The translations under genes were made by a program, and so were the position numbers. Shown here piece after piece: positions 14,101 to 63,900 of a DNA stretch of 64,000 nucleotides; within the stretch, counting starts at the first letter, position 1; every line of letters begins with the position of its first letter. Source of the DNA: Diprion similis (Eukaryota > Arthropoda > Insecta > Hymenoptera > Diprionidae); the NCBI RefSeq assembly GCF_021155765.1, contig NC_060110.1, positions 372,001 to 436,000 on the forward strand, given 5' to 3'. Below the pieces are notes generated by a model, which had not been told where the DNA came from, did no database searches, and worked only from the letters and a program-made list of their open reading frames with translations.

Positions 14101-16985
14101 CTCGCGATATCTCTTATGATATCCATTTCCCAGCTTTCGTTGCGGGTCGCCAAATTGTTGTGCACACGGTAAGTTCTTGGTCACTTCTCCGTGTGGCCGA
14201 GTTACAGCCAAAAATCCGCGTCACAACGTAAATAAGTAATCAACGCTCTAGTGTACTACATGAGGCTGCAATTAAAAATACTGCATTTTCCAGGTCCCTT
14301 AAGACTGCCTAACCTTGTATCATGTTTTTCAAACTTACCACTCAATATGAAAAATATTTTTTTACGGAATGTGTTAAGTAGGAATAGACCATAGCATCTA
14401 AATTAAAAATCAAGAAAACAGCAAAAATCGTTCGAGAAATCTCCAGCAGGGTTATTTGTGGCAATGACATTGCACAGGGATGGAACAATATTCCTACTGT
14501 GCAGAAATCATTTTGAGGAAATTTGAATATCAAGAGCTATGATATCAACAATTTGAGTAAAGATTTGATGATTAGAATATACAAGATGATTAAACTCAAC
14601 CTCTGGGATTTCTGATCAGGTCCCATTATTTTCGGGCTTATTTTGTTCTCCAAACCTATCTACAGAGGTGGTTTGAACACAATTACATTTCGAATGAATT
14701 TTAATCACCAAGCTTTTCCCCTTGTTATAAAAGATTTTCAATCTAGCACTTATGAAATTTTCAGCTTTGAATAATATAGTATTCTCTTACAACTCATGTA
14801 AGTTGTTTTATACTGCATGCAAAATATTTCCGTTTAGAACTCTTTATGGATATTGTCATAAATTAGACACTAAGCATGAAAATTTTTTCTGTAAATTCTC
14901 TAATCGAATTCTGAAAGAGTGCGATCAGTACAAAAACGTTTATCTCTTGCGTATCATGGTATTAGTCATTCAGTTTACATAAGTAAGAAGTTAGTAACAT
15001 TACGGTAACAATGCATGTTTAGAAAGAAATCATTACTTCGCACCTTTAGGAATGTCTGAAATTTAGTATATCATGATAAACAAAACACGACTCTTATTTT
15101 GAAACACGAAATCCTTGAATGTTATTCTAAAATTGCAGAACAACGATTGATTCCCTGATGTTTCGTAGCATCAACGTTACTAACTTCGGCCTCATCAGTT
15201 TACAATGATCGTCAAAAAGTACGAAGTGTTAATTTGTCATGTTTTATTCGCACAGTTAATTACGATTTTCAGCATTTCAGGCCTATCTCAAGTTTTGAAG
15301 TATTCACACTTTTCTAAACTGCTTGGTTACACTGCATTGTTAATAAACTTATATTTTTTCAAACTTCACAAATCTGGACAAAAATTGGGCAGAATATTTT
15401 AAAAATACAAGAGTCAAGTAAACTAATACGTTTCACTGGGAATTTAATCACATTCGCAAATATGCTATTCAAATTTTAATATAATAATTTTAATATCATA
15501 AACAATAATGATTTTAAATTTTATAATGTTTTGATAGCAGAACGCCGAAAAATCACAATTGCTTCAATTTTAGAATCACTCTGGGGATTCAAAATGTGTA
15601 ACTTTTGCTTTATTAAATCTGTACTTACAGTTTCCTATATTTCGGACAGATTTCAAATTGGAATTTTGTGACTTAGCGATTTGTTTTGAAAATATTTGTC
15701 TTCGTAAACATTTTTTACTTCAATATTGTGAAAAATATGACTTTCGATACCCATTAGAAATTGATAATATAATCATATTACTATCAAGAGAGCATAAAAA
15801 TTGAATGTGGTACTTTTAAAAACTAGAAAATTTCAATTATGATGATCAAAGCATCGTGAAATGCATAAAGTGAAACCAATATTAATATACCAAACTCTGA
15901 TGGGTGGCAATATGATTAAATGCCTGATCACACAAGTTATCTGAATTAATACCCAATTTCGCAAAGACAGTCAGTCTATTTTGTATCAAGAACCGTGAAA
16001 TTAGATTTTGTCCAAAAGTGATGCAATGAGATCAAACACTCTGCAATAACAGGAAAATCGTATTGGTAACAGATAATAATAAATTGAGGTTAACTCCAAG
16101 AATTTACAAAAAAAATTCTTACTTCTGATGTGATATCAGTAAAGAACTTTTTGAAGCAGTTAGATTAAGGCAGATTTGATACACGCTAAGAGAACTTACT
16201 TGAAAATTTCTTAATTACTATATTGAAAGAACCCCATTGTAATAGGGAAAAAGAGCTTAGTGCATAAAGCTAAAGTCAACAAGGCTTCCATCAAGCCAAG
16301 TTTGAGAGCGACCTGAAAAAGTTTTTTATAAGGCTGTAAGAGTTGACTTGAAAAAAGTCCCACGTATGGATAATACGAAACTTGATTGACATAACCATCT
16401 CAGATGAACTAAAAACTACGTACCATGTCATCTGGGCCTTCACAGCTATGTCTGTAAGGCATTCCTTCAGGAACGATTTTGTTGAGCATCATTTCCATGT
16501 CATCTCTCACGTCTGGATCCCAACTTTCGTTCAATGCCAAACTGGCGGACGTATGAAGAACTAGAACACGAAATTGAATAAAAATATCATATTGCAATCA
16601 AACTGTCAAATATGATAAGACTTGTGAAAAATGAGTATATTCCGTCCAAAGGAGTAGGTAAACAACACAAGAGCTGTGTTTATTCCATATACTGAGCTTT
16701 GTTTACATCCAAACTAGAGAAGTCCGATGGTATTGACTCTAGCCCTGAGACGAGCATACCAAATTTACTTGTTCATGCATCCAGTTTAAATGTTAAGTAG
16801 ACTTTATAGTAGACAAAATACCTACTTTGTATATGGCACAGGCCTACAGAAAATTGACAAAGCTCCGGAATCTGTCGTAAAATTTCTTCAGTGACCAGGT
16901 GGACTCCTCGATGTTGTGGTCTGAGGTTGATTTTTTTTTGAAACCAGGCAGAGCCAATTTGTATACCCCTGTTCGATGAAGCCAT
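2200..16985 (-). CDS. UPF0047 / YjbQ-family protein (secondary thiamine-phosphate synthase-like), three exons
   Basis: Exons on the minus strand are 16985-16826, 16560-16424 and 2415-2200, 513 nt in all, giving 170 residues. Junctions are GT-AG and keep phase: exon 1 ends one base into a codon and exon 2 ends in phase 0 after GPDDM. Family signatures appear in order: WFQKKINLRP near the N-terminus, HTSASLALNE at the exon 1/2 junction, DPDVRDDMEM, YRHSCEGPDDM, then LALGTWQGVWLCEHRDHAG in exon 3. The family is a small beta-barrel fold; bacterial YjbQ has weak thiamine-phosphate synthase activity, and the animal role is unknown. The start at 16985 is the first ATG in frame before the conserved block, and the length fits a family of about 140 residues plus a short tail ending in a Ser-rich stretch. 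Intron 2 is 14 kb and hosts a hAT-like transposon and many fold-backs. Introns argue against bacterial contamination. A further small exon cannot be excluded, but the joined protein aligns without a gap. Confidence 0.88.
2869..2879. repeat. Poly-G run (11 bases)
   Basis: Eleven G in a row inside AT-rich intron. Similar runs occur at 26766-26787 (C) and 61495-61508 (G). Confidence 0.85.
3605..3925. repeat. Fold-back (inverted-repeat) element, about 320 bp
   Basis: Two arms of about 120-150 bases are inverted copies of each other. Left-arm landmarks are a TCACGAAATAATGGC block near 3623 and GTTCATCAAG near 3670; their complements appear near 3890 and 3850. The centre near 3765 is AT-rich. It has no coding content and looks like a MITE or fold-back. 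I could not define a target duplication. Confidence 0.65.
4095..4237. repeat. Short fold-back MITE flanked by TA
   Basis: Perfect 25-base terminal inverted repeats starting CATGATTCCGCAAATATGG, continuing as a hairpin with a short loop near 4150-4165. It is flanked by TA at 4093-4094 and 4238-4239, as expected for a Tc1/mariner-type element. The right TA is also the left TA of the next fold-back. Confidence 0.7.
4240..4651. repeat. Truncated copy of a mariner-type fold-back MITE
   Basis: Same family as the complete copy at 21084-21564: starts CAGTAATGTTCATCGATGC after a TA, with two arms of about 200 bases around an AT-rich centre near 4475. The right arm stops matching near 4651, about 75 bases before the expected end, so the right terminus is lost. 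No transposase is encoded. Confidence 0.75.
4838..5312. repeat. Composite inverted and tandem repeat
   Basis: Outer inverted arms include 4838-4880 and 5131-5170 (TGTAACACCTGCATGGAAAG against its diverged complement). Inside lies a direct tandem pair at about 4922-4971 and 4973-5022 sharing CATTCGATATGCTCTATTTC. A second, tighter hairpin spans 5188-5312 with arms starting GTGCGTGAAGGCGATATC. GC content is higher than in surrounding intron. It is non-coding and origin is unknown. Confidence 0.6.
7036..7153. repeat. Tandem duplication, period 69 bases
   Basis: A block of about 49 bases starting near AATGACAGGTATCACC is repeated with one visible change 69 bases downstream. The spacer is built from CACTGAT-like repeats. 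Confidence 0.8.
8204..11671 (-). mobile_element. hAT-like DNA transposon, about 3.5 kb, decayed
   Basis: Ends are inverted: CAGGGTGTAT at 8204 and its complement ending at 11671, followed inward on both sides by repeats of a CCCTGACTTTTCC / TTTTCCAG type. The body holds the broken transposase (8733-11013) in minus orientation. It lies in the UPF0047 gene's large intron, on the same strand as the gene. I could not find a matching 8-base duplication (left flank TTCAAATA, right flank AATTTTAC), so the insertion is old or the ends are slightly misplaced. Confidence 0.75.
8733..11013 (-). pseudogene. hAT-like transposase with N-terminal zinc finger, broken by about three frameshifts
   Basis: Translation begins at ATG 11013, just after a splice-acceptor-like tract. 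The N-terminal part has a BED-like finger with CKLCQ and a HSKGKKH pair. A frameshift near 10740 leads into the central region (FDESLN; MDGPNVNQKF; VRWLENANVADRA). A second shift lies near 9700 and a third near 9520. The C-terminal part has LSHGNANVERGFSINKD, a form of the hAT dimerisation signature, and ends in a charged coiled-coil. Summed length is about 740 residues. The second and third shifts fall near runs of A or T (8 A near 9697; 6 T near 9523), so sequence error and true decay are both possible. Family placement as hAT is from the C-terminal motif and the CAGGGTG ends. Confidence 0.75.
11672..16423. other. Large intron of the UPF0047 gene, proximal part
   Basis: No recognisable gene. 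AT-rich, with a slightly more GC-rich block at about 12650-14230 that has several short minus-strand ORFs and looks like old transposon sequence. A string TTGGCGACCCGCAAC on the minus strand near 14140-14153 resembles a primer-binding site, but I could not define LTRs around it. Nothing else was identified. Confidence 0.4.
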
Positions 16986-22058: not shown

Positions 22059-24203
22059 ATGAATATATTCCGGCTCTTAGGTGACCTTTCACATCTACTG
22101 GCAATCATCGTGCTTCTTCTCAAAATATGGAAAACGAGAAGTTGTGCCGGTAAGTAACGTCTTGTATCACATTTGCGGCAACGTCTTTATATTTTCTACA
22201 ATATAAATCCTAAGACTCTTTCCCTGCTCTCGCCCTTTTTTCTCTCTGAGCCTCCCACCCTATTTTTCATGATCGTAATTCGAATTACTACGAAGATGTG
22301 TCTCAGTCATTAAGTACCAACCAATGTTCTCAACAATACTATTTAACTTATTCCTTTATCCTTCCAACAATCATTCGATATTGCTGCAAATGGTGTGCTC
22401 TAGTTGCTACAAAATATTCATCTTTCCACTGTAATTTCAGGTATCAGTGGCAAGTCACAGATCTTGTTTGCCATCGTCTACACGTCACGCTACTTAGACT
22501 TGGTGACCACCTACATCTCTGCATATAATACATTCATGAAGCTCATCTTTGTGGTTGCTGCTTATGCGACTGTTTATCTAATGTACATCAAGTTTAAAGC
22601 AACCTACGATCACAACCATGACACGTTCAGGTAAAATGACATTGTCTAGTGTAAACTACAATAAGCCTCAAATTTTCAATAACATAACACTAATAATTTC
22701 CCATCATGACGTAGCCCACAGATGCTCTTATGAGTTGTATGGTAGATTGCATGTCACAGATCTTTTAAAACTTATGATAGATAGTTGATCCGGGTATCCG
22801 GTGATAAGGAAAACATAAAATCTCCGGAGATTTGCAAATATTTAATCGGGTATGTACTTACACTTGAAATAAAATTCGAATGCATTCATTATTCTCTCAT
22901 ATGTAAGAAATCTTCCCATTTAATATAACTATTCAATGCTACACTCCCACCCTTTGCTCCCAACTCTAGTCATTGCCATACCACAGTTTGCCCAGCTATT
23001 TATTGTCCATGACTAGTCATAAACAAGCAAAATGCTTGTTAACATTATTTCAAACCAATTTCGAGAACAACTAGACATAGTAAAATGTTGGAAAAAAGAA
23101 TGATCGAACAAAAAATTAAGCATAAATGGAAACCAATCAATATAAGGCATGCAAAAACTTGTATGTTTACATTTGTTGAGAAATAAAGAGTAACCCTTTT
23201 ACTCCACAAGAATGATAAGTATAAGTTGTAAAAATCTGAAATTCTCAAAAAACTTTGAAACACCTTATCACTGGAAATACTCTGACAACTTAAACGGGTA
23301 CCCTGGTTGATTTTGATGTTGTATATATCTTCAAGTATCAAAGTTCACATATCTTGAACGCAAAAAGGGGTTTAACAGCCCCATTCTCTACATAATTCTG
23401 AATAAAACACTCTAATTCATTTTCATTTGATGCAGTAATAACGAAATTGCATGAATTCTACGAATTTAGTATTAGGATTTCATAGAAATTGTGGCATTTC
23501 TTTATTTTGGCCTCAAATGAAAATGTATTTAAGTATTGTTGTTCACAATTGTCTACAAAATGGGGGTCTTCAATGTGTGGAGATATATACATTAACGTCA
23601 AAATCGACTAAGGTGCCCCCTTAATTAAAACGTCTTATCTATTCTAAGTTGACAGTTATGCATGTGATAGTAAGGACCATGTTAAATCACAGTTAATCAT
23701 TATAACGAATTACATTTTGAACATTATGCACCGTCAAAAATTACACTTCTAATATTAAGAAAATCGGTTTCAAGCAAAACTGTTTGCCAAATATCATTTG
23801 TTAACTTAAAACACCTACTAATTTGTTGGTTTCTTGTATATTTAGAATGGAGTTTTTGGTTATCCCATCTCTGATTCTGGCGCTTTTGATAAATCACGAG
23901 CTCACCGTACTGGAAGTACTTTGGACATTTAGCATCTATCTGGAATCAGTCGCAATTTTACCACAACTTTTTCTGGTTTCTAAAACTGGAGAAGCTGAGA
24001 GTATCACCAGTCACTACCTCTTTGCTCTGGGATCGTACAGAGGCCTTTACCTCCTGAACTGGGTATACCGCTACTACGCCGAAGACCATTATGATTTGAT
24101 CGCCATAGTTGCTGGCCTTGTCCAGACGGTTCTTTATTGCGATTTCTTTTACCTTTACATTACCAAAGTGCTCAAAGGCAAGAAACTCCAGCTACCTGCT
24201 TAA
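22059..24203 (+). CDS. KdelR: ER lumen protein-retaining receptor (KDEL receptor), complete, three exons
   Basis: Exons 22059-22149, 22441-22630 and 23846-24203 join in frame over GT-AG introns of 291 and 1,215 bases to give 212 residues, the exact usual length of the family. The receptor is a seven-helix Golgi membrane protein that binds escaped ER proteins with a C-terminal KDEL-type signal and returns them in COPI vesicles. Visible family blocks are [38 protein letters not shown] in the variant VLWTF..., [35 protein letters not shown] and [13 protein letters not shown], ending in the lysine-rich tail [12 protein letters not shown] used in retrieval. The start is the first ATG and gives the canonical [13 protein letters not shown]. 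Polyadenylation signals AATAAA occur at 24660 and 24701. Confidence 0.97.
23294..23620. repeat. Fold-back MITE flanked by TTAA, in KDEL receptor intron 2
   Basis: Inverted ends CGGGTACCCTGGTTGATTTT and GGGGGCACCTTAGTCGATTT (complement of the right end) sit directly between TTAA at 23290-23293 and 23621-23624. The arms pair further inward (CCCATTCTCTACATAATTCT against its diverged complement near 23560). TTAA flanks suggest a piggyBac-type non-autonomous element. A related copy lies at about 36609-36915. Confidence 0.7.
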
Positions 24204-30500: not shown

Positions 30501-32531
30501 ATTATCTCTAAAAAACCAAGACTTCACAGAAAAGTAAGAAAATCTAGGATGAAATTTGATGTCAAAACTCAGCACACTCCAAATTTCTTTACTTAATCGT
30601 AAAATTAAATTTGTAGTTAGACATAGAAATTATTTTCAGCAGGGGAAGTACACAGAATGTCCATAAACTACCGTAATTTACAAAAAAAACTACGAATTCT
30701 ATGCAAGAAAATTAAGAAAAGTTCTAGGTCATGTTCGGATTGGTGATAAGTCTTTGAAATTTTCGTCGAAATTTTTTGTGGAATATCGTATTAATTATTT
30801 AGACCAGTCTTTGTTTCTGGGCACACATTTGACAAACTAATTCTGAAATTCTCCGAATTTTTTCACAGTCTCCAATTCATACTGCTAGAGTGCAATTCTC
30901 TGCTAATTTCTATAATTCCTTGCCAATATTTTACCTTATTTTCTATGCAATATTGTAACTGTTCACATATTACCTGAAAAATCTTGAAAAATGATTGATG
31001 TTAAATAGATACTGACGTACTCATTCTAAATAGAATCATCTGCATTTCTCCAGATTTTTCTGATCTCAAATTCTGTAGATACTTTTACGATATTTAGGTA
31101 CCGACGGACTATCCACGGTCGAAATACTCTGCACTCTTGGTCAAATTTCTCCTAGTTTGACTGCATTTTTATACATAATTAAAATTCATGTTCCCAAGAA
31201 CTGGTGCATGTTTCCGATGCAATCGATATTGACTAAATTAATTCATGCGCGCAATTAAAAGGCCATTTTCAGTTCATTTTTAGTTAGAAGAGCACGTTGA
31301 ACACTAGACTATGGCGTTTCGTCCGACATTTTTCTGTGTCGATACGGTTTGCATGACAGTGATAAATTTCAAGGAATTTTTGTACGAATCGCGCAAACTA
31401 TACAAGAATCTGCAGAACTTTTCAGAGATTATTATACTACTGAATGAAAACGGAATAGATTTGAAGTTGAAGTCTTGCAGAGACTTGGAGTGAAATTTTA
31501 CAAAGTGTAAAAAATGCAGCAAAATTTTGAATTTTTTGTAAGAGCAGTTGATTTCAAAAATAAAATGTGCAGTGCAAAAGTTCTCTGAAAAACTATAAAA
31601 TTTGAAATTATTAGAGAAATATTTGTACCAGAGTAACTGCAATACTAGCAAATATTAGTTATAACATAAAATAATCATTTGTCTAGCAACTTGTACTTAT
31701 GAAGAAGGGCATAAATGAGGCTGAAGTTAGTACGTTAACGTCACAAAACGTCAGTGGAAAAATCATTATTGCACGTTTTTGAAATGACTTTCAAGGAGTT
31801 GGCTTTTTGCAAAATATGAGTATATATTATTTGTCATAGATGACAAAATTTCAGACATTGCTAAAGATGGGAAGCAATGATTTTTTCTAAACATGTACCG
31901 TTACATTAACGTTATTAACTTCATCCATATCGGAATAAATATTCTACATCGAGATATCATAGTTACGATTTAAGAATTTACATCGTACCTGCAAATAACA
32001 TTCCACTTTGCCAAATGATACAATTTCAACAGTTAGATTTTGTGATGGCAAATGAGCCTGAATACTCATGACTTCACGATTTTCATTTTTTTCAGAATTT
32101 GTTGCTACAAATCGGGATGGATTATTACTGAACTTGCGCCACCAAGCCTTTCGCTCTCTCTGTTTCCTATAGAATAAATCTTTGGCAGAATTTTTTTCAC
32201 CAAACGTCATTACACTCATTCTTGTGCACAGTGGTGGCAGCGGAAGGTCAAGCATTTTGCTATGTTGGTTGTCATTTTGAGTGGTTTCTATTGAAGCTAG
32301 ACCAAATGGCAGGCCATCACTTCTCGAGTCTTTGAGATATCGTAAGGTTCTGGAGATTTGCGAAATCTGAGCCGGATAAACATTGTATTTTTCTGAAACA
32401 ACGCAATATTTCCACCAAACATCTTCGACGTTTCGTCGAAGGAATTGTCCAGAAGGGCCATAAATAAATTCTGTCTCTGAAACGGTCAGAAAGTCTGTGC
32501 CTAGTGCAGACAATATCTTATTGGCTTTCAT
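27582..32531 (-). CDS. PolG2: DNA polymerase gamma subunit 2 (mitochondrial accessory subunit), two exons
   Basis: Exons 32531-31989 and 27992-27582 join in phase 0 over a 4.0 kb GT-AG intron to give 317 residues. The accessory subunit dimerises, binds DNA and raises processivity of the mitochondrial replicase. It descends from class II aminoacyl-tRNA synthetases. The first exon matches the family N-terminal region (FIYGPSGQFLRRNVEDVWWK; YPAQISQ; PFGLASIE), and the second the C-terminal anticodon-binding-like domain (HPKLAPYKALIMPDN; LKTGIVQVINQL). Insect subunits are shorter than the human 485-residue protein, so 317 is plausible, but a further small exon inside the intron cannot be excluded. 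The start lies 36 bases after the GatC stop codon, and no separate promoter is visible in that gap. Confidence 0.85.
27993..31988. other. POLG2 intron
   Basis: Four kilobases of AT-rich DNA with many short near-repeats of tandem TTACGA/TTTCATA-like words. I found no conserved exon, RNA gene or definable transposon. Confidence 0.5.
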
Positions 32532-32551
32532 CGTGCTGCTTCAGTTTGCAT
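32528..32551 (-). promoter_or_regulatory. Seven-codon ORF between GatC and POLG2 whose stop overlaps the POLG2 start
   Basis: In the 36-base GatC-POLG2 gap the only ATG (32551-32549) opens a reading frame of ATG plus six codons, ending at TGA (32530-32528). That TGA overlaps the POLG2 ATG (32531-32529) as ATGA. The upstream ATG has T at -3, a weak context; POLG2's ATG has A at -3. This geometry suits leaky scanning or termination-reinitiation. Confidence 0.55.
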
Positions 32552-32567
32552 ATAGAATTTACAGAGG

Positions 32568-32975
32568 CTAGTATTTGTCGGTAGTGAGATTAACTGGAAC
32601 GTTGCCCGGCGGAGCTATGAAGTAATCTTCCTCTGTTAATGCGGCGTTCTTCAACACCTTTTTTGCATAACCACCATCAACAATGAGATCGTCTCTAAGT
32701 TTAAGTTTTTGATTTTCGAGCACGGTATACATCGGCTGGATGTCGGCGTTTAGTTCTACCAACCACAGTTGCTTAGCAAACGTTATTGCGGCTTCTAGTC
32801 TGGCGATACCTTCCACGCTTCCGAAGTTCACCAATGATAACCTCTCCAGTTGTTCGATGGCTTCACTGTCTATAACAGGAGCGACTTTGTCAGTACAGTG
32901 TGATAATTCAGTTGTGAAATGTCGCAGGTGGAATCTCTTCCATCCATTGCAAGCGACACGTCCAAATCTGATCAT
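32568..32975 (-). CDS. GatC: Mitochondrial glutamyl-tRNA(Gln) amidotransferase subunit C, single exon
   Basis: Single exon of 135 codons plus stop. GatC stabilises the GatA-GatB amidotransferase that converts Glu-tRNA(Gln) to Gln-tRNA(Gln) in mitochondria. Family features are the IEQLERLSLVNFGSVEGIARLEAAI helix segment at about residues 39-64, the ADIQPMYTV motif near 78-87 and LRDD near 94. The C-terminal LTEEDYFIAPPGNVPV is typical. The N-terminus (basic, with no acidic residue before about residue 24) looks like a mitochondrial targeting peptide. The ATG has G at -3. It is the upstream partner of POLG2, and the two probably share a transcript. Confidence 0.92.
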   Translation of the reverse strand: MIRFGRVACNGWKRFHLRHFTTELSHCTDKVAPVIDSEAIEQLERLSLVNFGSVEGIARLEAAITFAKQLWLVELNADIQPMYTVLENQKLKLRDDLIVDGGYAKKVLKNAALTEEDYFIAPPGNVPVNLTTDKY

Positions 32976-33190
32976 TGCCCTTTAAATATTTAGCAATGAT
33001 GTGCAGTGCACGGACTTAGTGCGATGTTTCGCGATGGTAAGCTAAAAGCGCTAAAAGAGAAGTCAAAACTGTAGGAACAGAGAGTGCGTTCCAAAACATA
33101 CTTTAAGTAATACTGCCGCCAGTCAGCGATGTCACGAAATTCGTGATGTTGTTGAGAGTGTTGCTTAGAGCATATAGTGTTGTGACTACA
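32976..33190 (-). promoter_or_regulatory. Probable promoter region of GatC-POLG2
   Basis: About 200 bases of mixed sequence lie between the GatC ATG and the first repeat of the 33-39 kb cluster. No TATA box stands out. A CTTAGAGCATATAGT string at 33170-33185 is the end motif of the nearby transposon family. Confidence 0.3.
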
Positions 33191-33470
33191 TTCTTAGGGG
33201 GGTGCCCCGGTCGATTTCGTGTAAGTTGTACTACATATCTCCAGGCATCGAAGCTACGTGCCTTAGGGTGCTTATAAAGACCCGTTGTACACCTCGAAAA
33301 CACGGGGATGCAAAACTCCTATACCGCTCAAGCGATCAGAGTGAAACTTGGGCAGTTAATACCTTATTTTGGCAAAAAGTGAAGCGTCTTTTTGCTTTTT
33401 AAAAATTTTGACAAAAATTTTACAGATTGGTTACCACTCACAGAAATTGACCAAATTTCCACAGTTACAC

Positions 33471-36033
33471 CTTAGAGCATATAGTAGATAGAGGGAGCCT
33501 TCTGGCCGAAAAGTGTGACGACAGAGAGGGAATGAGTAGCTTGAGAACCTGTCTTTTTCTAAGCCAGGAGCGTAGCGTGGTAAATTTAGTACCCACGTCA
33601 ATGATAGACACCTAACTAAAATTTTTTATGAAATTCATTATTGTTGTATATCTTATATAATATGTTATGTACATACATTTCAATGTAATATACATAATAA
33701 ATTTACACTGAAGAATTGATCACAATTGTAACAAAAAAGGATAATTTTCTTTCGAAAGAAAACTTGCTTTCCGAATTTGTGATTTGAATCATCACTTTCT
33801 ATTTTACAAACTATACATTTCAGAACCATTCTGAAATTTGGTTACCGACGCGGTTGTTAATGTTTCATCAATAGTGTACGCTTTGGAATGCATCCTGCTT
33901 CATTCTTAGCTCTAAGGCCTCACTACATGGGCACATCGGGCACTGCACCCTTACCGTACGCTTGGTACAGCTCTGACGTAGTCTGGTGGCTGATTTGAAC
34001 TGACCAATCACATTTTGTAAGAGAGAGATAGTGTAACATCCGATCGGAACGTCCGTATGTTTTATTGTTTATGATTATTCCCTAACATTAGTTACCAACT
34101 AACCAAAACTCTGAATGTGAGAACTCTGTAAGAAAGTCATTCAAGGAAACTGCTTGACCATCTGAAAGCCCCTAGATGAGGCATAACAACCATTATCATT
34201 AATCAAGAGTCCAGAAACCATATTACAAGATCCTCACATTACAGGAGACTATGATATTATTATTTTATTATCACAATTTACTAACACCATTATATCGAAA
34301 TATTATACAATACCTAGTTGCAACACGGAGTTTAGAGCCACATTATAGGCAACCTATGCTACAGCCTACAGCCCACGAGATAGATAAGACTATAACATGA
34401 AGATATATAATCAATATAATATAAAATTAATAACATTAGAGAAATAACCTGTAAAGGCCAGGGACTGCGATACCTCCAAATACGTAAATACAAATTATTC
34501 AACATTCCCTTCCAAAACGCCGTATTGTAGGCAACGCGCCTAAACTTTGGAGGTAACGTAGACCTCTATTGCAGAACCGTACAGAACGCCACCTGGAGAG
34601 TGTATCAGTAACATAATAACAAAATCACCGAAGGTAACCTAACTCACGGGATGATTCTGTAGGGCGAGGCAATCAAAAGGTAACTCAGGAAAATAATAAT
34701 GAATAGACTATTATTAAATCATCAAAATCAAAACATCCACATTATTTTTGGAGACGAAGTATAATAGTGTTCCAGGATTAATTATCTTCTATAAAATATA
34801 TCAAATATTATATTAGAGAACGCTCTTGTATCGCAGATAAACATTAAGCAAGCAAATTAATCAATTATCTTCTATACAACCCTTCATTATATTCCCTAGC
34901 ATACTAGAACATTCTAGAAATAAAAGTACGCTTGTAATATAACGCCCCGTACGCTCAAGAACGCCGACATTGTATAAAATCAAAACCAATATAATGATGT
35001 AGGTAAAGCTCACACGGATTCAACCCTAGGAAGCGGCGATCTCGAGCATACGCGCGTTACGCGCCCGAAGGCCACCTCATAAAGTTGTGTTAGACCCCCT
35101 ACTCCTTCAGTACAACTATCAAGGGACCGCGCGCCTATCGACGAATACACTAGCGCGTTGCACCAACACACATATACATGAAACTCATACCCATAACATA
35201 CACTAATTCAAATCCTAAAAAACGAATACCACTCTAGTTCTCAATCTTAGAGAGGGGGTATGGAGCAAAGAGTTGGGGGCACGGTCCAAAGTCCAACTTT
35301 GCACCCAACACCAATAAATCCCATAGCATAGCATACCAGCCTAGTCTTAATTCTTAGAATAAGGGGAAGAAATGCGTTTTGTGGGGCAATGCTCGAGGAG
35401 AGGATTTCACACCCCTATCGTTACCGCTCTGAATAAATAGCGTAGAGCACCCAGCGTTCATTCGCTCTCTTGGTTTTTATCTCCAGTAGCTACAATTACT
35501 CAGTAGATCCTCGCGGTAAAATCCTCTAGCATTTGCATTCCAACGACGAATCTCTACCTGATTCATTAGCCAATTTTATATTATTAAAATTTGTTCATTC
35601 TTATTCTGTGTGTTTAATCAAAATATATTCTACTTTAAACCAATTCCAAATCTAAATTCTGTGTTCATTTAAAACAAGTTCCTTCATCACGCCTATACCA
35701 CAGTTCCGGAAGAAGCCGTCTCATAAAAGGTAAGGTAAATGTTATTTTAATAATTTATAACAATTTCCAACTCTCCGTTAATATCCAATTACGCGAATTC
35801 GATCAAGTTGTCCATTTCACTTCAGTGATTAATCGATATTGGCGACCCACAACTACTGATGTGAAGTCTAGCTAAACATCCGCGATAATCTCTAGTGGTA
35901 GTTTTGGGGAATTTTCGTGGAGTGCCGCTCCGACGTCACAATAGGTTCTCATGCTACTATATCTATCCTTGGTAACATCGCCACTTATGGGCCAGGATAG
36001 GACAGGCTCCCTCCATCTACTATATGCTCTAAG
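33471..36033. mobile_element. TIR transposon with 8-bp target duplication, containing a solo LTR
   Basis: Ends are a near-perfect 30-base inverted repeat starting CTTAGAGCATATAGTAGAT. It is flanked by an exact 8-base duplication AGTTACAC (33463-33470 and 36034-36041). Without the LTR at 34032-35940 it is only about 650 bases, with no coding capacity. Eight-base duplications suit P or hAT superfamilies; the ends do not match a family I can name. Confidence 0.8.
34032..35940 (+). mobile_element. Solo LTR, 1,909 bp, with 4-bp target duplication
   Basis: Begins TGTAACATCC and ends GACGTCACA (TG...CA), flanked by ATAG at 34028-34031 and 35941-35944. Homologous to the older copy at 17492-21642. 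A four-base duplication suits Gypsy-type integrases. No gag or pol is present, so this is a recombined solo LTR; the superfamily is inference. Confidence 0.75.
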
Positions 36034-36608
36034 AGTTACACTGAATGGATCGACCTATTCGGTATGATGCCACTCGGCGGTGATGAAACACACATTTTGA
36101 GCCCAGTCCCATGAGATTTGATGGTGAAATGACGAAATGGCAACTGATTACGAAGAACACCGGAATCTCATTTTGGTGACATTTGTCGGTAATTTCTTAC
36201 CGACATTACACGCATACATTACCGGCATGCGCGTAATGTCGGTAACAAATGTCGCCAAAAGGAGATTTCGGTGTACTTCGTAAGCGAAAACCAGATCAGC
36301 TGCCATTTCGTCATTTCACCATCAAATCTCATGGGACTGGGCTCCAAATGTGTACTTCATCACCGCCGGGTGGCGTCATACCGGATAGTTCGATCCATTC
36401 AGTGCAACTGAAAATATTTGGCCAATTTCTGTGGGTGGTAACCAATCTGTAAATTTTTTTTCAAAATTTTGAAAAAGTAAAAAGACGCTTCACTTTTTAC
36501 CAAACTAAGGCATTGATTGCCCCAGTTTCACTTTGATCGCTTAAGCGGTATAGGAGTTTTGCATCCCCGCGTTTTCGAGGTGTATGTACAACTGGTCTTT
36601 ATAAGCAC

Positions 36609-36915
36609 CTTAAATGCAACGAGCCCCATTCTTTACATAATTCTAAACAAACAGACTGTAATAAATTTTCATTTGATGCAACAATAAAGAAATCACACGA
36701 AAATTACGAAATCGCAATAGTAAATTCCTAGTTTTCGTGCCATTTCTTTATTTCTACATCAAATAAAAATGTTTTGGAGACTTTTTGCTCAGAATTGTCT
36801 ACAGAATGAGGCTGTCAAGCCCTATTTTGAGTTTAAAATACGTGAAATTTGATATCTGCGATATCATACGAAGATATGTACGACAACGTTAAAATCGACC
36901 AGGGCACCCCGTTAA
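36609..36915. repeat. Partial copy of the TTAA-flanked fold-back
   Basis: Matches 23294-23620 through AGCCCCATTCTTTACATAAT and the right end CCAGGGCACCCCG followed by TTAA. The left terminus is missing, although a TTAA is present at 36609-36612. It sits between two inverted copies of the larger fold-back arm. Confidence 0.55.
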
Positions 36916-37099
36916 GGTGCTCATAAAGTTGCGTTTTATCTCGAAAACGCGGCAAGCCAAGCTTCCTATACCGCTCAAGCAATCAGGATAAAACTTGGGC
37001 AATCGATTCCTTATTTTGACGAAAAGTGGAGCGATGTTTAATTTTTCGAAAATTTTGAAAAACAATTTTACAGCTCGGTTATTGCTCACCCAAATTGAG

Positions 37100-41955: not shown

Positions 41956-44900
41956 TTATAGCAGAAAACACCTGCGTCTTGGCTTGGGATGGATAGGTGG
42001 ACGGAGAACGGCGCGTATCGCCTCGTCAAACACGGTCTTCAAGCCTTTCTGCGTCAGGGCTGAGCACTCTAGGTACTTGACAGCTCCAATTTCCTTAGCC
42101 ATTGCTAAACCCTGTTGAAGTAAAAAGTAATATGAGTAAACACAATATGATGTATTTATTATTATGATTATTCTTAACCCCAGAACGACAGACTAGGGTG
42201 GATATCCACTCAAGGCAGTCTTTAAACTACTGAGTTAGTGAGTGACATTGTTGACTCTGAACCTTCATTATAATTCAGTTCAAGGTTCTAAAACTAGAGT
42301 CAGGTCAATAGCGCTATCAATTTTCCGCCTGCAGTGACAATGGTAGACGTAAGGCTTGCGTGTAATTAATATCCAACCGTCTGTAGTTCCCATTGAAGTT
42401 TTGTTGCCGTAAGTTGATTTTCTTTTTATTGCTAAAATACACGTATTCCACGTATTATTAGGCTACTTGAAGGTAAATAGTCATCTATACCGTTTGCAAT
42501 CAGGATTTCCATAGTTTACGACCCATTATGTGTTGGCAGAAGAGAAAAAAAAATAATACTGAAAACAATACCTTTTTTTATGATATATATTGTACTTCGC
42601 AAATAGAAAAATATACTTTGAAGACAACATATTATGGCCCATTGATTAAGTTTTCATGTAACATTTATAACAAGAGATTATAAAAAAAAAAAAAAAAATG
42701 AAAACTTTACAAAAAAAAGAATAATTTTTAAATAGTTGAGATTGCAGAACGTGAGTATTTTTTGCCTCGTTATAGTTTACTGAGTTTCAGATGTTCTCAA
42801 GGTATCTTCGTTTTCTAGAATGGGATCATCTTAATTTTCCCATATCATGTCATCTTCCGTTCCATCGATTTCATAGCAGATAACAATAGAGAAAACGATG
42901 GTTTCTCTATTTTTCCAGTCGGAGTAAGAGCATGATCTGCTTCCAGCAGCTTAACAACTCCTCAATCTGTCTTTAAACGGCTTCTTCACCACCACGGCCA
43001 GGATTTGCAACTGAGACGTCATGTCTCCTGAAATGATGACTAAATCGGTCTTCAGATTTTGAATTTGACACTTTACGGCGCCACTTGTGTGCCTAGTGAA
43101 AGTATCCGGAACTAGCACTGCTCTTTGCCTCAGTAGAGAGCCAGGTCGTTTATCCCAAACCACTCTCGACCAGTCTTGCACTAAATTTTCAGAAATCCAC
43201 CCATTGTCTAGGCAGCGAACATGTATTCCAGATGGTCTAGTTTCTTTCGGTAGGTGTTTGCGTTTAAATACAACGTATGGTGCAAGTTTGGTGCCATCAG
43301 CTAGCACCGCCAACATAACAGTAATTCTTAATTTCTCATTCCCAGAGCTTTTGATGAGTACGCTCTTTGCACCTTGCAGACCGACAGTCGTATTTAATGA
43401 CATATCAAAATATACTGGAGTCTGGTCAACATTACCTATTTGACCAAGTAGATAGATAAGCTCTTACCTTAATTTTAATAAAAATTGTTAGAACTTGTCT
43501 AGTTTTTTCTCGAAATCATTGGGCCGACGTTGTTCTTCCCCATAAAGTTAAACCGTGTCTCCGCATCATACGCTTACACCATCCCATACTAGCTTTAAAT
43601 TGGCTTCGTGGAATATTCATTAATCTTGCTACTTCCAATCCCCTCAGTTGAAAAACTTTGCACGTAATTGCAAAACCTTGGTTCCTTTTCTCAAATACAA
43701 AGGCTGCAACTTGACTATCCAATTCTACATTTCTACTGGATCTAGGTCCACTAAAACTACGACGTGTTCAATTGGCATACTTTAGCTTTTGCTTCATTTC
43801 ACGCCAATCGCGTACATTTTTTCTCTGGTATACCGTATTTTAACGCAGCTTGGCAATTGTTGGTGTTTTTGGCTTCCCATACAACTATTAGGTTGAAGTT
43901 CACATCATAACTATGACAAAGGTTTCGTCCACTTGATTTGGCTGTGAACCCCTACACTCCACTCTATCTGCATTCCAAACATTCATTTTCTCAATGACTC
44001 CATGCACGAAACATCTTATAAACAATTTGTTTATTCCAACTTCAGACTGATGCTCTAAAAAATTGAGGTTTGAATTTTCGATCTTCAAGATTAGGCGCGC
44101 ATGCGCAGTGCGCGGATATTGCATTGCGAGAACATTACAATTATCAGTTGATAACGAAATTTCGAGTTGATAATGCAGACCCCCTGAAAAGTCCCGAAAA
44201 TAGGTTGAGCCCGAATATAAGTCAAGTATGGTTTTTGAGGGTAAATTCGTTTACCAAAAACCTGGACTGATATTCGGGCCAATACGGTATATAATTTCCC
44301 TGACTTTCACCAGAGTTTTTCAATTATCAAAGAATTACATGACTTTTATCCTCATTTGCAGACTTTGTCACTACCCTGTTGAATAAGCAAAAAGATCTGA
44401 TATACCTGAGGGTAAGTGATTGGTGCGAGCTTTTTGTCCTTGAGTCGTTCGATGGTTTCCTTGTCTTCACGCAAGTCAAGTTTGGTACCAACCAAGATGA
44501 TGGGAGTGGTTGGGCAATGATGACGGACTTCAGGATACCATTTGGCTCTGACATTTTCAAAACTAGCAGGATTTACCAGCGAGAAGCATATCAAAAAGAC
44601 ATCAGTCTGTGGGTATGAAAGCGGCCGGAGCCTATCGTAATCCTCTTGACCAGCCGTATCCCAGAGGCCTAGATTTATCGGCTTACCATCCACCATCACG
44701 TTTGCAGAATAGTTGTCAAATACCGTTGGGATATATTCACCAGGAAATGCATTTGTTGTGTAGCTAATCAGCAGACAGGTTTTACCCACGGCCCTGTTTG
44801 AAAATTGTAACAGTCAGTGCTAAATTTAAACAGGTGTTTCAATAATTAGAAATACTATTTTTTCATTTCATTTTGAACATACTTCATTCCCATTCGAATA

Positions 44901-45970: not shown

Positions 45971-48900
45971 ATGGGCGCCATGTGGCGTCAGCAGGTGTTT
46001 GCGCTTGACGCCAAGTACAATTCTCACCGAGCCTTAAATCAACCGAATCTCAGTACGTAGTCTAAACATTCTTGCATCGGATAGGCATAAGCACGTTCGG
46101 TAAAAATTTGTTCGGATAATCATTTCGAAGCATAGCGGATAAATTTGACAGATGCCACTTGGGAGTTGTCAAACATGATGACGTCCCGAAGGTGCGCACC
46201 GATTGTTTAATTTCGATTATTGTATCGATACGCTGACCAGTCGATTTTTCAAATCCCCTTATGCCTGGTTTACTTGCGCAATTTGAATGAGGGTATTTAT
46301 CCAATTATAGTTGGGGTCTGATAGAGAGCGTTAATAAAATGGTAATACGTGCACTCAAAATGCATTGAAATTTTACATCTAGATGAGGCTAAAAGCACGT
46401 TGGCGCTTTTCCGCGACATTAAATTTGTAATTAGTTGTAGTAGTAGTCATGCACTGCAGATACAGAAGAAATCAGTCTTTCGGAATAAAATGTGAAGTAA
46501 TAAAGCCAGAGTAGCCACACTACCTTTGGATTACTAAATGACGAATATTTTCAAATTTTCTCATGACCTTGGCAGCAATCTGCTTTTCTTAATTTGCTGA
46601 AAAATTCGCACATCTACCCCAAAATCATCTGGAGTAATGTCGACAATTTTGTAAATCGGAATTTTTACAGAGTAATTTTAAAAAAAGTCGCTGAACCATT
46701 AAATGCTGACAAAAATAAGTCCAGAAATGAATATTTTCCTCATAAACTTGAGTCTTTTTGAGACAACTCAGAGATTGTAAATTAGCATAGAAAGTTGGAG
46801 CAATTCCAGAAACCCAGTTATTCTTTGTACAAATTTTTCTTTTGCCATGCAGAATATTTGCTAAAATTCTTCCAAAGTTTGCAAAGATGTGAAACTTTTT
46901 GGAGTAAATCATATAAATTCAGAGTTTTTTAGAGAATACTTTCCCCAGAGTTGTATAACTTGCGGCTCCGAACAAGCGCACGCAAAATCGCAAATATTTT
47001 CACTAATCATTCCAAATCAAATCCTAGGAGCTTTTTGAATTGTGTATCAACAGCATTAATATCACTATTGAACAGGGACGAAGGAAGAAAGTATTGACTG
47101 TGAGTGCTGGTAACAGGCATAATGAGCAACCCAATGAAGTGTACTGCACATCATATAAGTTTACATTCAGTTTAATCTTGCGAAGCCATGCTAATCATAT
47201 GCAACAGCAAAGGCTCAGGCTTAACCAAATTATTAAACATGAGAGATTTTGTAAAAAGATTGAATATTTTTCTTCGCTTAACCAGTGAGAAAAAAAAAAC
47301 AGTGAGAATCGCGCATGTTTTCAAAATAAAAATAAACATTTGAATTTATTATGCAAAATTTAATTTGTAAAGACTATGGTAATCGTCTTCAGGCAAGCTG
47401 CTTGGTGACAGATAAATTCATAGATTTTATATCGTTGTGAATTCACTGTATATTATTTTTTTGATGTAGCTCCTAACATTATTCTCAATCACAAAATAAT
47501 GAACTACTGTTAATAGTCTGAACTATGGAATTTTTTTTAATAATGTAAGAAATAAAGAAGAGTGTTGAAATGGCCATTTGTACTTTCAATTCAAGCATCT
47601 AACTTTTACTTGAAAACTGCATTTTTCCTCAATAGCTAAGAGTTGTTTTGCCCAACTGACTCAAGTTTAGTACTTATTTCTATGAATCCTGAGAAAATTC
47701 GTGATTCCAAGATTGTGACCATATCTCTTGCCAGCACCGAAGTAACTCACCGGTTACATTTTAAGGCTATCTATTCGTAGCCACCTATTTCTGTTCTTAC
47801 ATCTGAAATGAAAATCGAATTTTCAAGTTGCACTGAAATTATACTACTATATTTGCATTTTTTTTTACAGGAACCTTGTATATACGACGCCGTTGTCAAT
47901 TGCTCAGACAGAATTTTCCAAAGGAATCTGAAATTCACATAAACTATGTGAAAATACGCTCTCAATTATTGCAACGTAGGTATGGAAATATTGCAGATCA
48001 GAGCTGCACAAGTGTGAGCAGTCGAAGTCGTTCAACAAGTATTCGCAGTTGTAGTATTTCACGATTGTCTGAGCAGGAGTTTAAAACAAATGTAAATAAC
48101 TCAGGCCTTCAGTCATCATTGATGGATGGGATGGGCGGAACACAAACTGTCTTTCAGACGAGAAGATCAATTGCTGAAAACTATGCCTTTGTTGGTGTCC
48201 ATCACATATTTGATCAACATTCTGCTGCTGTATCAATGTTGAAATTTGCAAACAATGATAGATCAAAGTTGTGCTGTGCTTCTTTAGATGGCATTATTTC
48301 AATCTGCGAAGTAACCGGTGTTACTGGAACTCCACCCAAAGTAGTTGCACTGCTAAAAGGTCATGAGAAAGGAGTTACAGCTATTGATTGGAGTGTCAGC
48401 AATGATTTGGTAGTCTCCTGCTCACTCGATGGTACTATTAGACTATGGAGTATTCAATACACATCGTTGGATCCCGAGACATTTCAATCTGATTCCTTAA
48501 AGACAAATTGTTTACGGATTGTCAAGGATCAGCTCCGTGCCGCTATCTTGTGTTGCGCTTTCCTCCCAGCCAATAACAATTTAGTTATCACTGGCAATTC
48601 ACATGGATTACTACAAGTTCTAAATGTATCTACTGGAATTTATCCACGGGAAGGCACTGCAAAAATTGGCGGAAAGGTTTCAATCTTAATTCATAAAGCT
48701 TAGAGCTATTGGCAATATATACATCATAAAGATTTGATAGGAAATATCTGAGCAATTTACTAATCTTATGATATGTTCATTGGAGAAATCCGCTAGTTGA
48801 TTCAAAATTTGGTATTTGATATGTATATCGTATTCTTGGTTGTAAACATGGCCATTAATCATCCGTATAAGTACTTTCCAAATTGTTTATAGTTATTCAC

Positions 48901-51569
48901 CTTATTCTATATGTCATAAAAAGATTCGAAAGTTTTAGAGATATATTTAAATTTAATTTTTTTCGTTTTATTATTTCATTTTTCATTTTCGTTGACTTTG
49001 ATTTTAAATTTTTCATACTGTTTTCAAGTACTTTATTGAACTTTTCCTCCTGGGGAACATACATTTTTCATTTGATTTTGATACTAAGAATGTTTATCAT
49101 ATTTAATACAATGATGGCGATTTCTTCAAAATCTTGCACTAAGAAAATTTTGTGAAACTGTCAAAGCAGCTGTGGCTTTGTTGTTACTAATTGTCAGGTG
49201 AGCTTTTAGCTATGCTTTTTTGAGCCCTGAGTTTAAAAAAATAATATAATGGAATGAATAAAGGATGAATGACGTTTATCCAAAACATCTGTGGAATGGC
49301 AGCATCGATCAAAGCGATTCAAACGAAAAAATTTCTCATTGTGCAATCCTTCGATCCAATGCAGTACCAATACTCAACTTGGTTTAATTTTTGTTTTTAA
49401 TCTCGAATTGTTCAATAATTTTTTTATAAAAAATTTAGATGCTCAAAGACTTATTTAAGTTAAATTGGCAAATTGATGAACGCTGTAAAGATTTATTGAT
49501 TGAACTGTTTTCTTAAAAAAATCTCTAATTGTTTTCGTGTCTTATTGTATGAATGATTCTGAAGAGATTCTGAAAATATAAGTTGTTTTATAATCAAACT
49601 TGAAATATTCAAACTTTGCAAATCACGAAAAGTGAATATTAAATAATAATCCGATTTACAAAGAAATCACTAAAATGAAAAATAAACGATTTGCAAGGCC
49701 TAGAAAACAAAAATTGTGGATTCCGAATTATTCTTCAAAATATGCAATTTACATTAGACGTTCACACCTCTGCAATTTCATAAGAAACTGAATGAATTTT
49801 TTCGAAGATGATGACATTGTAAAAAAACCAGCTCGAACTTGTTAGTTATTATGGTGAATTTTCAGATTCTGTCGTTAGCATGTGAAGAAAGCGGAGGAGG
49901 ATCCTTGGTGTGGGCAGGAAACGATAGGGGAAGTGTAATATCTTGTCAGCTCGAGGTGGGCTCGGGTCGTTTAACAAAGCTTCGACGGATCGATGGAATT
50001 GGTGGAGGAATAACGAGTCTTTCTTGGCGATCCTGGCTGTCCAAAGAATCTCCTTGGCCTACACTTTTATTGAACAGTGCCTGTAACAGTCTTTGCCTTT
50101 ATCGAATAATTGATCAACATGGGACGCTATCCCTCGTAAGAAAGTACCCTGTCAGACACAGGTAATCTGTAAATATATTTTCAACCTTTTTTACCAAAAG
50201 TATCATATCTTTTCATTAGTCAGGATTTGGGTTTTTCGAAAGCTATAACACATTTTCTGATGATCTCAGTTTCCTTTACTTTCTAAGAGGCCGCAATAGC
50301 GTATCTTTAGCAGATGTTTAACATATCATTGAAGGGGAATAGCGGGTGCAATTCTGCTACAGCGCCTTTTATGGATGAATAGCATGGAATAGAACTTTTC
50401 AAGTACGCTATTTCCGTGTAGTGCTATATTTTTCGTTTACCCTAATCCTACAAAGAGCAAAGTAATTTTTAAGCATATCTATCATATTACCCATGTACTA
50501 AAATGTCACCAGTCATTTATTAATGTGTACTATTGAATTGTGTACCTAAGAAATGTGTACCTTAGAAACCTTTTTAAAATACTCCAGCTAAGAATTTTTT
50601 GGTCATCTCATTCAATTTTCGATATGAATCTTGCTGAAGCCATAGAAATTCACAGGTGTGTCTTAATTAATTTCTGACAACTGCTGGCATTAAAATTATA
50701 TCACTTTGTTACTTCATTACTCCGATTATTAAGAGTATTATTTAACCACTTGATAATATACAATCCCCATGAAGTCTCATGAAATTTAAACTACTTTCAC
50801 TAATTTCAAATTCAGAAAAATCGGCCAATCTAGGCATACCAAAATTTCTAACAAGATAAAATTCTGAAAAATACCGATTAGCTCTTATTATTGCTCAAGA
50901 TGTGTAATGAAAAGTTGAATAATGAATTAGAACGGATGAGTATCAAATGTTGATCTAGTTAGCATGACATGTACCATGAATATATTCTAGGGCTCCAATC
51001 AATACTTCGTTACTATTAGTCGTAACATATTAGTATGGTATTCAGTGACTGAGAATTCTATATCTTTAGATAAACCTGATCACCACATATGTGATATAAA
51101 TTTGTTAACGTAGTAGTTGAGTAGAGGATTTGCATTGTACACATGTATAGTTTATCTATTTGGTTTCAGCACTCTCGTTATTTGGCCACTACTTGGTTAC
51201 TAATCTTTTAATCTCTGGATTTTTTAGATATCTTGTTGAAATTATTATTTGATGTTTTCAATACAGAATGTTGAAAAATTAATAAATCAATAGATAAGTT
51301 ATGGTAATGTTGTTGACAGGCAATACTTGGTCCGATCAACATTCTGTCCACAAATGGGGGCATGTTTAATAGCTACTGGCTCGGAGGAAGGGGCTATCCA
51401 TCTGATAGACTCATCAAGGGAAGGCAGAGGAGCTCGAGTGAATCGTCTCCAAGGTCATGCTGCACCCACACTAGCTCTTTCTTTCAATTACGACGAGTCT
51501 CTATTAGCGACTGCCGATCATCAAGGTCTTATAATTGTGTGGCGCAACCATCAACATCATCATCAGTAA
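45971..51569 (+). CDS. WDR13: WD repeat-containing protein 13-like, complete, four exons
   Basis: Exons 45971-46052, 47871-48676, 49866-50161 and 51320-51569 join in frame (GT-AG) to give 477 residues, against 485 in human WDR13. The N-terminus has the family motif WRQQVFALDAKYNSHRA followed across the junction by RTLYIRRR. A Ser/Arg-rich linker (about residues 70-90) precedes SENYAFVGVHHIFDQH-like sequence (here AENYAFVGVHHIFDQH). WD40 blades then follow: GHEKGVTAIDWS...LW, LCCAFLPANNNLVITGN, LVWAGNDRGSVISC, ACLIATGSEEGAIHL and GHAAPTLALSFNYDESLLAT ending IVWRN. WDR13 is a nuclear-associated scaffold with poorly defined function. A second in-frame ATG at 45980 could also be used. Exon 1 is tiny and is accepted because it restores the conserved N-terminus in phase. 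Confidence 0.93.
46053..47870. other. WDR13 intron 1
   Basis: No additional gene or defined repeat. AT-rich. It ends in a long T tract before the acceptor at 47869-47870. Confidence 0.5.
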
Positions 51570-60800: not shown

Positions 60801-60851
60801 TCCAGCATTCTCCTGTGCAGCCAGAGAATGCCTGTTCGGAAATTTGGCTCT
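54816..60851 (-). CDS. Exo70: Exocyst complex component 7 (Exo70), C-terminal four exons, partial
   Basis: Exons 60851-60300, 59714-59462, 57122-56856 and 55087-54816 join in frame over GT-AG introns to give 447 residues plus stop. Human Exo70 is about 650-735 residues, so the N-terminal coiled-coil region is missing and should lie upstream of 64000. Exo70 is a rod-like exocyst subunit that tethers secretory vesicles at the plasma membrane by binding PI(4,5)P2. Family blocks: AKRCIARRDFSAVLVVFPIL; GAKALEDFAENVRND and PKDGTVAESTSNVL at the exon 2/3 region; VYIKKVLAQLNLAL across the next junction; LNNHNHVINAL; and the C-terminal domain KVIKERFAGFTREFEE ... PFSKNPAKHAKYSPEQV ... FDTAA. The C-terminal basic patch used in lipid binding is retained. 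The acceptor at 60852 confirms that more exons precede. Confidence 0.93.
55224..55479. repeat. Fold-back MITE built from ATTAATCG-like motifs, in the last Exo70 intron
   Basis: Ends TAGGGCTGTGCGATTAATCG and (complement of right end) TAGGATTGTGCGATTAATCC. The interior is a diverged palindrome rich in CGATTAAT/AATCGATTA and CAATTGAT. The first 12 bases match the left end of the element at 25500. No target duplication is evident. Confidence 0.65.
57179..57597. repeat. Non-autonomous hAT-like element with CAGGGTGG ends
   Basis: Left CAGGGTGGTGATAGAAGCC and right (complement) CAGGGTGGCGACAAAATCA are inverted at the termini only; the right part has CCTGAGAATTCCC-like repeats as in the 8204 element. 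It lies in an Exo70 intron starting 57 bases upstream of the exon at 57122. Flanking duplication not seen. Confidence 0.55.
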
Positions 60852-62776: not shown

Positions 62777-63900
62777 TTGAAGTATGTGAACAACCATGAG
62801 AGTGCTAATGACATGCCAGGCTATACACGCTTGTTTGATCGTGTGGCTGAGGAAGGGATTGACAATGATAATTTCTATGTAGAACATTTTATATATATCC
62901 CAAATTTCTTTCCAGTAACAACCTATGTGTATCTGACCTGCGGCTTAACTTTACTGAAGTTAAATGCTGCATTGAGAAGATTAAACCTGATTCTAGTGTT
63001 GGCTCTAATGGGATATATCCCTTTTCCTTAGGAACTGTGCGATGCTTCTGTGCAATTGCAGCCTCTTCTTACTATTCTTAATAAGTCTCTCAGCAACGGG
63101 ATATTCTGGACCATCTGGAAAGCGGACTTCTTGTCTCAACTTTATAAGTCTGGTGATAAGAAGAATGTCGGTAATTACTGTCTCATCTTTAAGCTGAATT
63201 TATTGGCCAAGGTATTCTATGCAGCAGTTGAGTGTAAACTCTCTCTATGCCTAAGGACTCACATTATTCCTCAGCAGCATGGCTTTATGCCACAGAGATT
63301 AACTGTTAGTAATCTAGCTATATACTTTAATCATATCGTAAAGGGGTTAGTCGAAAAGGGTCAGACAGATGTTCTCTATATCGACATGGTTAAAGCTTTT
63401 CACAAGGTGAACCACAAGTTGCTGCTCAGTAAACTCAACATCATATTGAAATTCAAAGTTTCCTAATAAGTAAAATTCATGTGCCATCGGATGTTCCCTA
63501 CAGGTCTCATCTAGGGCTACTGTTGTTTTTAACTATGATTAATGATATTGGGCGTAAGATATATCAGTTCTAATTTCTTACTGTTCGAGGACAACTTCAA
63601 AATTAATAAAACAGTCAATTCTGAATTAGACGCTTTCTAACTCTGGAGTAATATTAGCAGCGTCTGTCGTTGGTGCCGGGATAATGGCCTTAGTTTCAAT
63701 GATAAAAAGTACTCGGTCACATCTTTTTCTAGGCCAAACAGGGTAAATGCAGATTATTTACTTTATGACGTACCATTATAGTAGTTCTATGCTGCAATTT
63801 ACCCTGGAGACTTTAGCTGTAGATCAGTAATGGAGAGGCTTAAACTATTTGGCTGCACCGTTTCATCCTTAAGAACTAACTGCTAGGGCAAATTGCTGAC
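62777..63900 (+). pseudogene. Degenerate non-LTR retrotransposon reverse transcriptase
   Basis: RT motifs appear in order but with breaks. LNAALRRLN... near 62960 is the pre-finger region. WKADFLSQLYKSGDKKNVGN from about 63117 corresponds to the WKxAxIxPIYKKGDxxxxxNYR motif. IIPQQHGFMPQR follows near 63265. YIDMVKAFHKVNHKLLLSKL near 63380 is motif A, where Asp is retained but the usual AFDxVxH is AFHKVNH. After a stop, a SHLGLLLF... block and LFEDNFK (in place of FADDTK) lie in other frames near 63510 and 63585, and CRWCRDNGLSFNDKKYS near 63665. Loss of the second catalytic Asp of the FADD box and multiple stops show it is dead. The pattern suits Jockey/CR1/R1-type elements. Neither end was found; it may run past the window. 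Confidence 0.75.

Follow-up and report, generated by a model that had tools for sequence, protein, structure and literature searches.

In Drosophila melanogaster, GatC (CG33649; PMC4826098) and PolG2, or pol gamma-beta (CG33650; PMC7968924), are described as "neighboring and co-transcribed" in PMC6926476, where the catalytic-subunit gene tam also appears among eight candidate genes of the GatC/pol gamma-beta region. FlyBase release 6.04 is reported to hold 159 dicistronic pairs (PMC4528330), and CG33786 belongs to another such fly pair, at 57A (PMC2276209). FlyBase dicistronic loci are defined by a processed mRNA spanning both ORFs, and at those with polycistronic transcripts only, the stop-to-start distance ranges from -34 to 319 nt (PMC4528330). 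Two described translation systems are also comparable. Bicistronic genes of green algae, read by leaky scanning, are reported to have a short gap, weak first starts, start codons under-represented before ORF 2 and an A at -3 of the second start (PMC11892635). Calicivirus and influenza B systems with termination upstream ribosome-binding sites (TURBS) have a long first ORF whose stop codon lies near the second start or overlaps it; the UGGGA motif conserved in caliciviruses is complementary to 18S rRNA (PMC5972666).

We analysed 64,000 nucleotides of the Diprion similis genome (the window), in which the same two genes are neighbours. As in FlyBase dicistronic loci, they are two distinct, unlike and complete ORFs that follow one another on the same strand, and the 36 nt from stop to start falls inside the range of exclusively polycistronic fly loci; the processed mRNA spanning both ORFs that defines those loci is here a predicted one. 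The original prediction had read the pair as dicistronic and had noted that the Drosophila orthologues share a transcript; the first reading is supported by this anatomy together with the reported fly co-transcription, and the second agrees with the wording of PMC6926476. The arrangement is thus already known in D. melanogaster, and the locus adds one more example of this known dicistronic pair and is mostly ordinary.

Gene structure and protein identity

The features of the pair, all on the minus strand, are as follows.

32975-32568, minus strand: GatC ORF, 135 codons, intact, coding part without an intron
32567-32532, minus strand: gap between GatC and PolG2, 36 nt, from after the TAG ending at 32568 to the ATG at 32531
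32551-32528, minus strand: seven-codon ORF, MQTEAAR and then TGA (32530-32528), overlapping the PolG2 start in ATGA
32531-31989, minus strand: PolG2 coding exon 1, 181 codons, A at -3 of the start
31988-27993, minus strand: PolG2 intron, 3,996 nt, with putative splice sites predicted from sequence (donor CAG/GTACGA, acceptor TTGCAG/A)
27992-27582, minus strand: PolG2 coding exon 2, 136 codons plus stop, with an anticodon-binding-like domain

The upstream ORF matched the Pfam GatC family (PF02686, E 2.5e-06) with 28 bits, above the gathering score of 23, and its single match up to E 1 among PDB sequences was a weak one to amidotransferase subunit C (2df4_C, E 0.0014). An in-frame stop sits just 5' of its ATG, with two codons between, and the start is therefore firm, barring entry by splicing. 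By eye, the N terminus is rich in Arg and Lys with few acidic residues and looks like a mitochondrial presequence.

The two PolG2 exons join in frame across a GT...AG intron to give a protein of 317 aa. An in-frame TGA that begins 12 nt 5' of the PolG2 ATG pins this start down to within 12 nt, again barring splice entry; the roughly 20 residues before the first matched block are only weakly presequence-like by eye. Among the PDB matches listed for exon 1 at E 1 or below, 14 of 15 were POLG2, with 5c53_B at 3.1e-11, a score inflated because that entry carries the matched blocks twice, and the remaining POLG2 chains at 4.1e-05 to 1.1e-04; no Pfam family matched the exon 1 ORF. Exon 2 (ORF 27998-27582) matched PF03129 (E 3.6e-05, 24.3 bits, cut-off 21). 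Taken alone it matched POLG2 in the PDB weakly (5c53_B at 1.2e-04, others at 0.014 to 0.25), interspersed with glycyl- and prolyl-tRNA synthetases. The joined protein listed 18 sequences up to E 0.01, 14 of them POLG2 (1.4e-14 for 5c53_B, with its blocks doubled, and 1e-08 to 1.8e-07 for the other chains) and four glycyl-tRNA synthetases, which matched more weakly (0.002 to 0.0092); no single stretch fell below 0.01 by itself. Between query positions 54 and 103 PolG2 has 48 residues, compared with 106 in 2g4c_A and 3ikm_B and 73 in 5c53_B, the first matched block being weak. We take 2g4c_A and 3ikm_B to be human POLG2 chains. Despite the weakness of that block, the shorter spacing would fit a missing vertebrate dimerization insert, which in human POLG2 is given as H133-R182 (PMC9653094). 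The two coding exons are also like those reported for pol gamma-beta in Apis and Drosophila (PMC4419789), a likeness that says nothing about GatC linkage in Apis.

A scan of bacterial and archaeal genome contigs with PolG2 exon 1 returned a single locus, whose 499-aa product we read as a probable bacterial glycyl-tRNA synthetase. Viral contigs scanned with PolG2 and with GatC yielded no relative, and the plasmid search gave no match.

Mobile-element fragments aside, the closest other genes recognised are represented by one exon that ends at 24203 and one that starts near 44813, as judged from a profile scan covering 10 of the window's 34 listed ORFs of at least 100 aa, plus three in an earlier Pfam scan. 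The first is an ER lumen (KDEL) receptor exon (23805-24203, PF00810) and the second a Ras-family GTPase exon (44352-44813), near which lies a DDE_1 superfamily endonuclease fragment (42951-43463, minus strand; PF03184, E 2.5e-17). Farther out are a WD40 protein (47837-50165, within which ORF 49815-50165 had no Pfam match), Exo70 exons (56830-60863, PF03081) and a reverse-transcriptase fragment (63032-63466, PF00078). Long minus-strand ORFs at 8733-11106 are transposase-like by eye, presumably of hAT type, and two ORFs there (8733-9536 and 9677-10843) had no Pfam match at 0.001. Inspection by eye of the window's 34 ORFs of at least 100 aa revealed no POLG catalytic subunit.

A probable shared mRNA and possible separate PolG2 transcripts

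We consider it very probable, from the layout of the locus and the fly precedent, that GatC and PolG2 are transcribed here as one shared mRNA, and probable, with somewhat less assurance, that this mRNA is the main source of PolG2. One promoter within about 290 bp 5' of GatC would drive a single transcript with GatC followed by the two-exon PolG2. The stretch at 32976-33262 (minus strand), bounded 5' by a repeat, would be expected to hold both the promoter and the leader unless the repeat element supplies the promoter. One splice acceptor in this stretch is strong, with a score of 9.5 and 33068 as its first exonic base; the rate of acceptors above 8 is 0.81 per kb. The repeat itself belongs to a nested inverted-repeat, mobile-element-like structure at 33263-36613, starting 288 bp 5' of the GatC start; its outer arms (33263-33470 and 36402-36613) are 88% identical and its inner arms (33471-33500 and 36004-36033) 97%, and a related copy lies at 36912-37098 (76%). 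Part of the PolG2 intron (31714-31930) is a repeat that recurs in inverted orientation at 14979-15195 (75%) and 3213-3422 (72%).

The gap is as the original prediction described it: the coordinates bear out 36 bases between the GatC stop and the PolG2 ATG, and the only ATG in the gap, at 32551, opens the seven-codon ORF whose TGA overlaps the PolG2 start as ATGA. The further claim that the gap lacks a good splice acceptor also held, none of the ten best acceptors scored for 33300-32520 falling there. The claim that it has no space for a promoter is plausible at 36 nt, but gatC itself could hold an internal start site. From 32975 to 31989 there is no AATAAA or ATTAAA, where only about two would be expected from their density in the window. 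The PolG2 intron contains four poly(A)-signal-like hexamers, on account of which a GatC-only mRNA is possible.

The main rival to PolG2 supply from the shared mRNA is that PolG2 has monocistronic mRNAs of its own, made from a promoter in gatC or from a leader spliced to an acceptor in gatC, with loss of the GatC start, the dicistronic mRNA then serving GatC only. An acceptor inside gatC with its first exonic base at 32869 makes a PolG2-only mRNA possible, and it scores 6.9 vs 4.8 for the PolG2 intron's own acceptor; however, it stands at chance density, acceptors above 6 occurring at 3.17 per kb on the minus strand. An Ohler-1-type core-promoter motif at 32906 (9 of 11 positions matched) is likewise at chance level, with 0.42 such matches expected in the stretch scanned. 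Both scans used generic matrices and motifs (TCAKTY among the core-promoter motifs), and the core-promoter motif scan turned up nothing convincing. A bacterial promoter and terminator scan, which is meaningless for animal DNA, gave no promoter-like and four terminator-like hits (0.7 in shuffles). Precedent in flies favours separate transcripts to a degree, since one gene is also monocistronic at 69 of the 159 dicistronic loci and both genes are at 45, as tallied in PMC4528330. We regard supply of PolG2 by its own mRNAs as a minority reading, though one to be taken seriously.

Possible routes of PolG2 translation

On the shared mRNA, which we prefer as the source of PolG2, a ribosome entering at GatC would meet seven AUGs before that of PolG2, counting from GatC's own. 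Three of them have a purine at -3 (32975, 32947 and 32668). Besides the AUG of the seven-codon ORF, the AUGs from the GatC start to the PolG2 start are these.

32975, minus strand: GatC start, G at -3 and A at +4
32947, minus strand: start of an out-of-frame ORF of 25 codons (32947-32870), G at both -3 and +4, the best context among the internal AUGs
32943, minus strand: start of an out-of-frame ORF of 11 codons in gatC
32732, minus strand: AUG in the GatC frame, 54 codons
32677, minus strand: start of an out-of-frame ORF of 8 codons in gatC
32668, minus strand: start of an out-of-frame ORF of 5 codons in gatC, nested in the 8-codon ORF, G at -3
32531, minus strand: PolG2 start, A at -3 and A at +4

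Five more AUGs lie in 33300-32976 and would be extra hurdles if they are inside the mRNA. The AUG of the seven-codon ORF is flanked by T at -3 and C at +4 and, with that at 32732, is one of two among the eight AUGs with neither a purine at -3 nor a G at +4.

As in the green algal genes, the gap is short and the second start has an A at -3; unlike them, out-of-frame AUGs are undepleted in gatC, with four observed where 5,000 synonymous shuffles average 3.96. The GatC AUG, with G at -3 vs A at -3 for PolG2 and A at +4 in both, is not plainly weak. The count over all frames, GatC's own AUG included (6 vs a mean of 8.43 in dinucleotide shuffles), leans toward depletion, but coding contributes to it too. 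TURBS and this locus both have a stop near or overlapping the second start; here, however, the overlapping stop closes a seven-codon ORF instead of a long one, and UGGGA, the TURBS core, is absent from the minus strand of 33500-31980. The original prediction had PolG2 translated by reinitiation or leaky scanning. For clean leaky scanning or TURBS-type reinitiation neither signature is clear, given the undepleted AUGs, the purine at -3 of GatC and the missing UGGGA.

The stop-start overlap is not significant alone, because shuffled sequence yields it in 7-15% of cases. With the ATGA at the PolG2 start given, 10.2% of mononucleotide shuffles of the gap (n = 20,000) have an ORF ending on that TGA, and in 7.3% of these shuffles its ATG is also the only one; among dinucleotide shuffles of the region, 1,211 of 8,100 36-mers (15%) do so. 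The seven-codon ORF therefore looks like chance, is weak evidence and deserves no weight, and we dropped it as a sign of coupling. The 36-nt spacing is more telling than the overlap.

Given a shared mRNA, we put roughly even chances on a combination of leaky scanning past GatC and reinitiation after short ORFs within gatC. Most PolG2 would come from ribosomes that pass over the GatC AUG. Some of these may translate the short out-of-frame ORFs in gatC (25, 11, 8 and 5 codons) and then rescan until they reach the PolG2 AUG with its A at -3. The 25-codon ORF (32947-32870) is a possible relay for such ribosomes, and the seven-codon ORF would mostly be bypassed because its AUG context is poor. A toy scanning model, in which parameters took assumed ranges, the seven-codon ORF was a dead end by assumption and the output follows the inputs and measures nothing, put the ratio of PolG2 to GatC initiation at a median of 0.07 (10th-90th percentile 0.03 to 0.15). 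In the same model a median of 74% of PolG2 starts (10th-90th percentile 46-90%) came from ribosomes that had read a short ORF, compared with medians of 14% for plain leaky scanning and 6% for reinitiation after GatC-frame ORFs. A far more specific version is a delayed-reinitiation relay like that of GCN4 and ATF4 within the GatC coding sequence, in which the 25-codon ORF at 32947 would load ribosomes, factors would be reacquired over about 340 nt, and PolG2:GatC output would rise on eIF2 phosphorylation; we consider it a long shot.

Alternatively, ribosomes that finish GatC could scan the 36 nt and restart at PolG2, perhaps positioned by the AUGA of the seven-codon ORF. The short gap, that overlap and the A at -3 of PolG2 favour such termination-reinitiation, as does the finding that five of 24 human transcripts tested used coupled reinitiation, none of them TURBS-like as described in PMC5972666. 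However, the same source calls reinitiation after long ORFs "presumably" very rare and gives an approximately 82-fold lower level for the downstream protein of CASQ2 (PMC5972666). At this locus, the missing UGGGA and the frequency of the overlap in shuffles also count against it, and structure is not unusual in the gap (minimum free energy -1.8 kcal/mol, z +0.70, little structure) or at the end of gatC (z -1.15). We consider this route unlikely. Internal ribosome entry in gatC or the gap seems less likely still: the FlyBase authors suggest that IRES use may be common, most fly dicistronic pairs failing scanning requirements (PMC4528330), but none of four stretches folded in 32700-32432 was unusually stable (z -1.15 to +1.38; an unstructured IRES would escape this), and no Rfam family reached its gathering score within the window (an undescribed IRES would escape this). 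Readthrough into a GatC-PolG2 fusion is rejected, since three stops (TAG, TAA and TGA) lie in frame between the two ORFs, even though both are in the same reading frame.

Expression partners of PolG2 in flies and mitochondrial gene supply

Leaky scanning and reinitiation on a shared GatC-PolG2 mRNA can be set beside fly transcript data. In the review PMC9653094, PolG2 mRNA is reported as uncorrelated with PolG1, helicase and mtSSB and correlated with PolrMT, mTTF and Suv3, and as averaging 5.8-fold over PolG1, which is higher only in ovaries. The review presents this divergence of PolG2 from the rest of the replisome genes as perhaps its most striking finding. The main text of that review leaves GatC unmentioned, its sole "gatc" string being part of a primer. 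A poorly translated second cistron on a GatC mRNA would fit both the co-expression partners of PolG2 and its mRNA surplus in flies; the ovary exception, where PolG1 exceeds PolG2, is left unexplained by a shared GatC mRNA.

Were the delayed-reinitiation relay true, supply of the replicase accessory subunit would be set against organelle translation under stress. The original prediction that the linkage ties mitochondrial tRNA charging to replicase supply is speculation. If the pair shares an mRNA outside flies too, the replicase accessory subunit would be transcribed with a mitochondrial translation gene, and not with the replisome.
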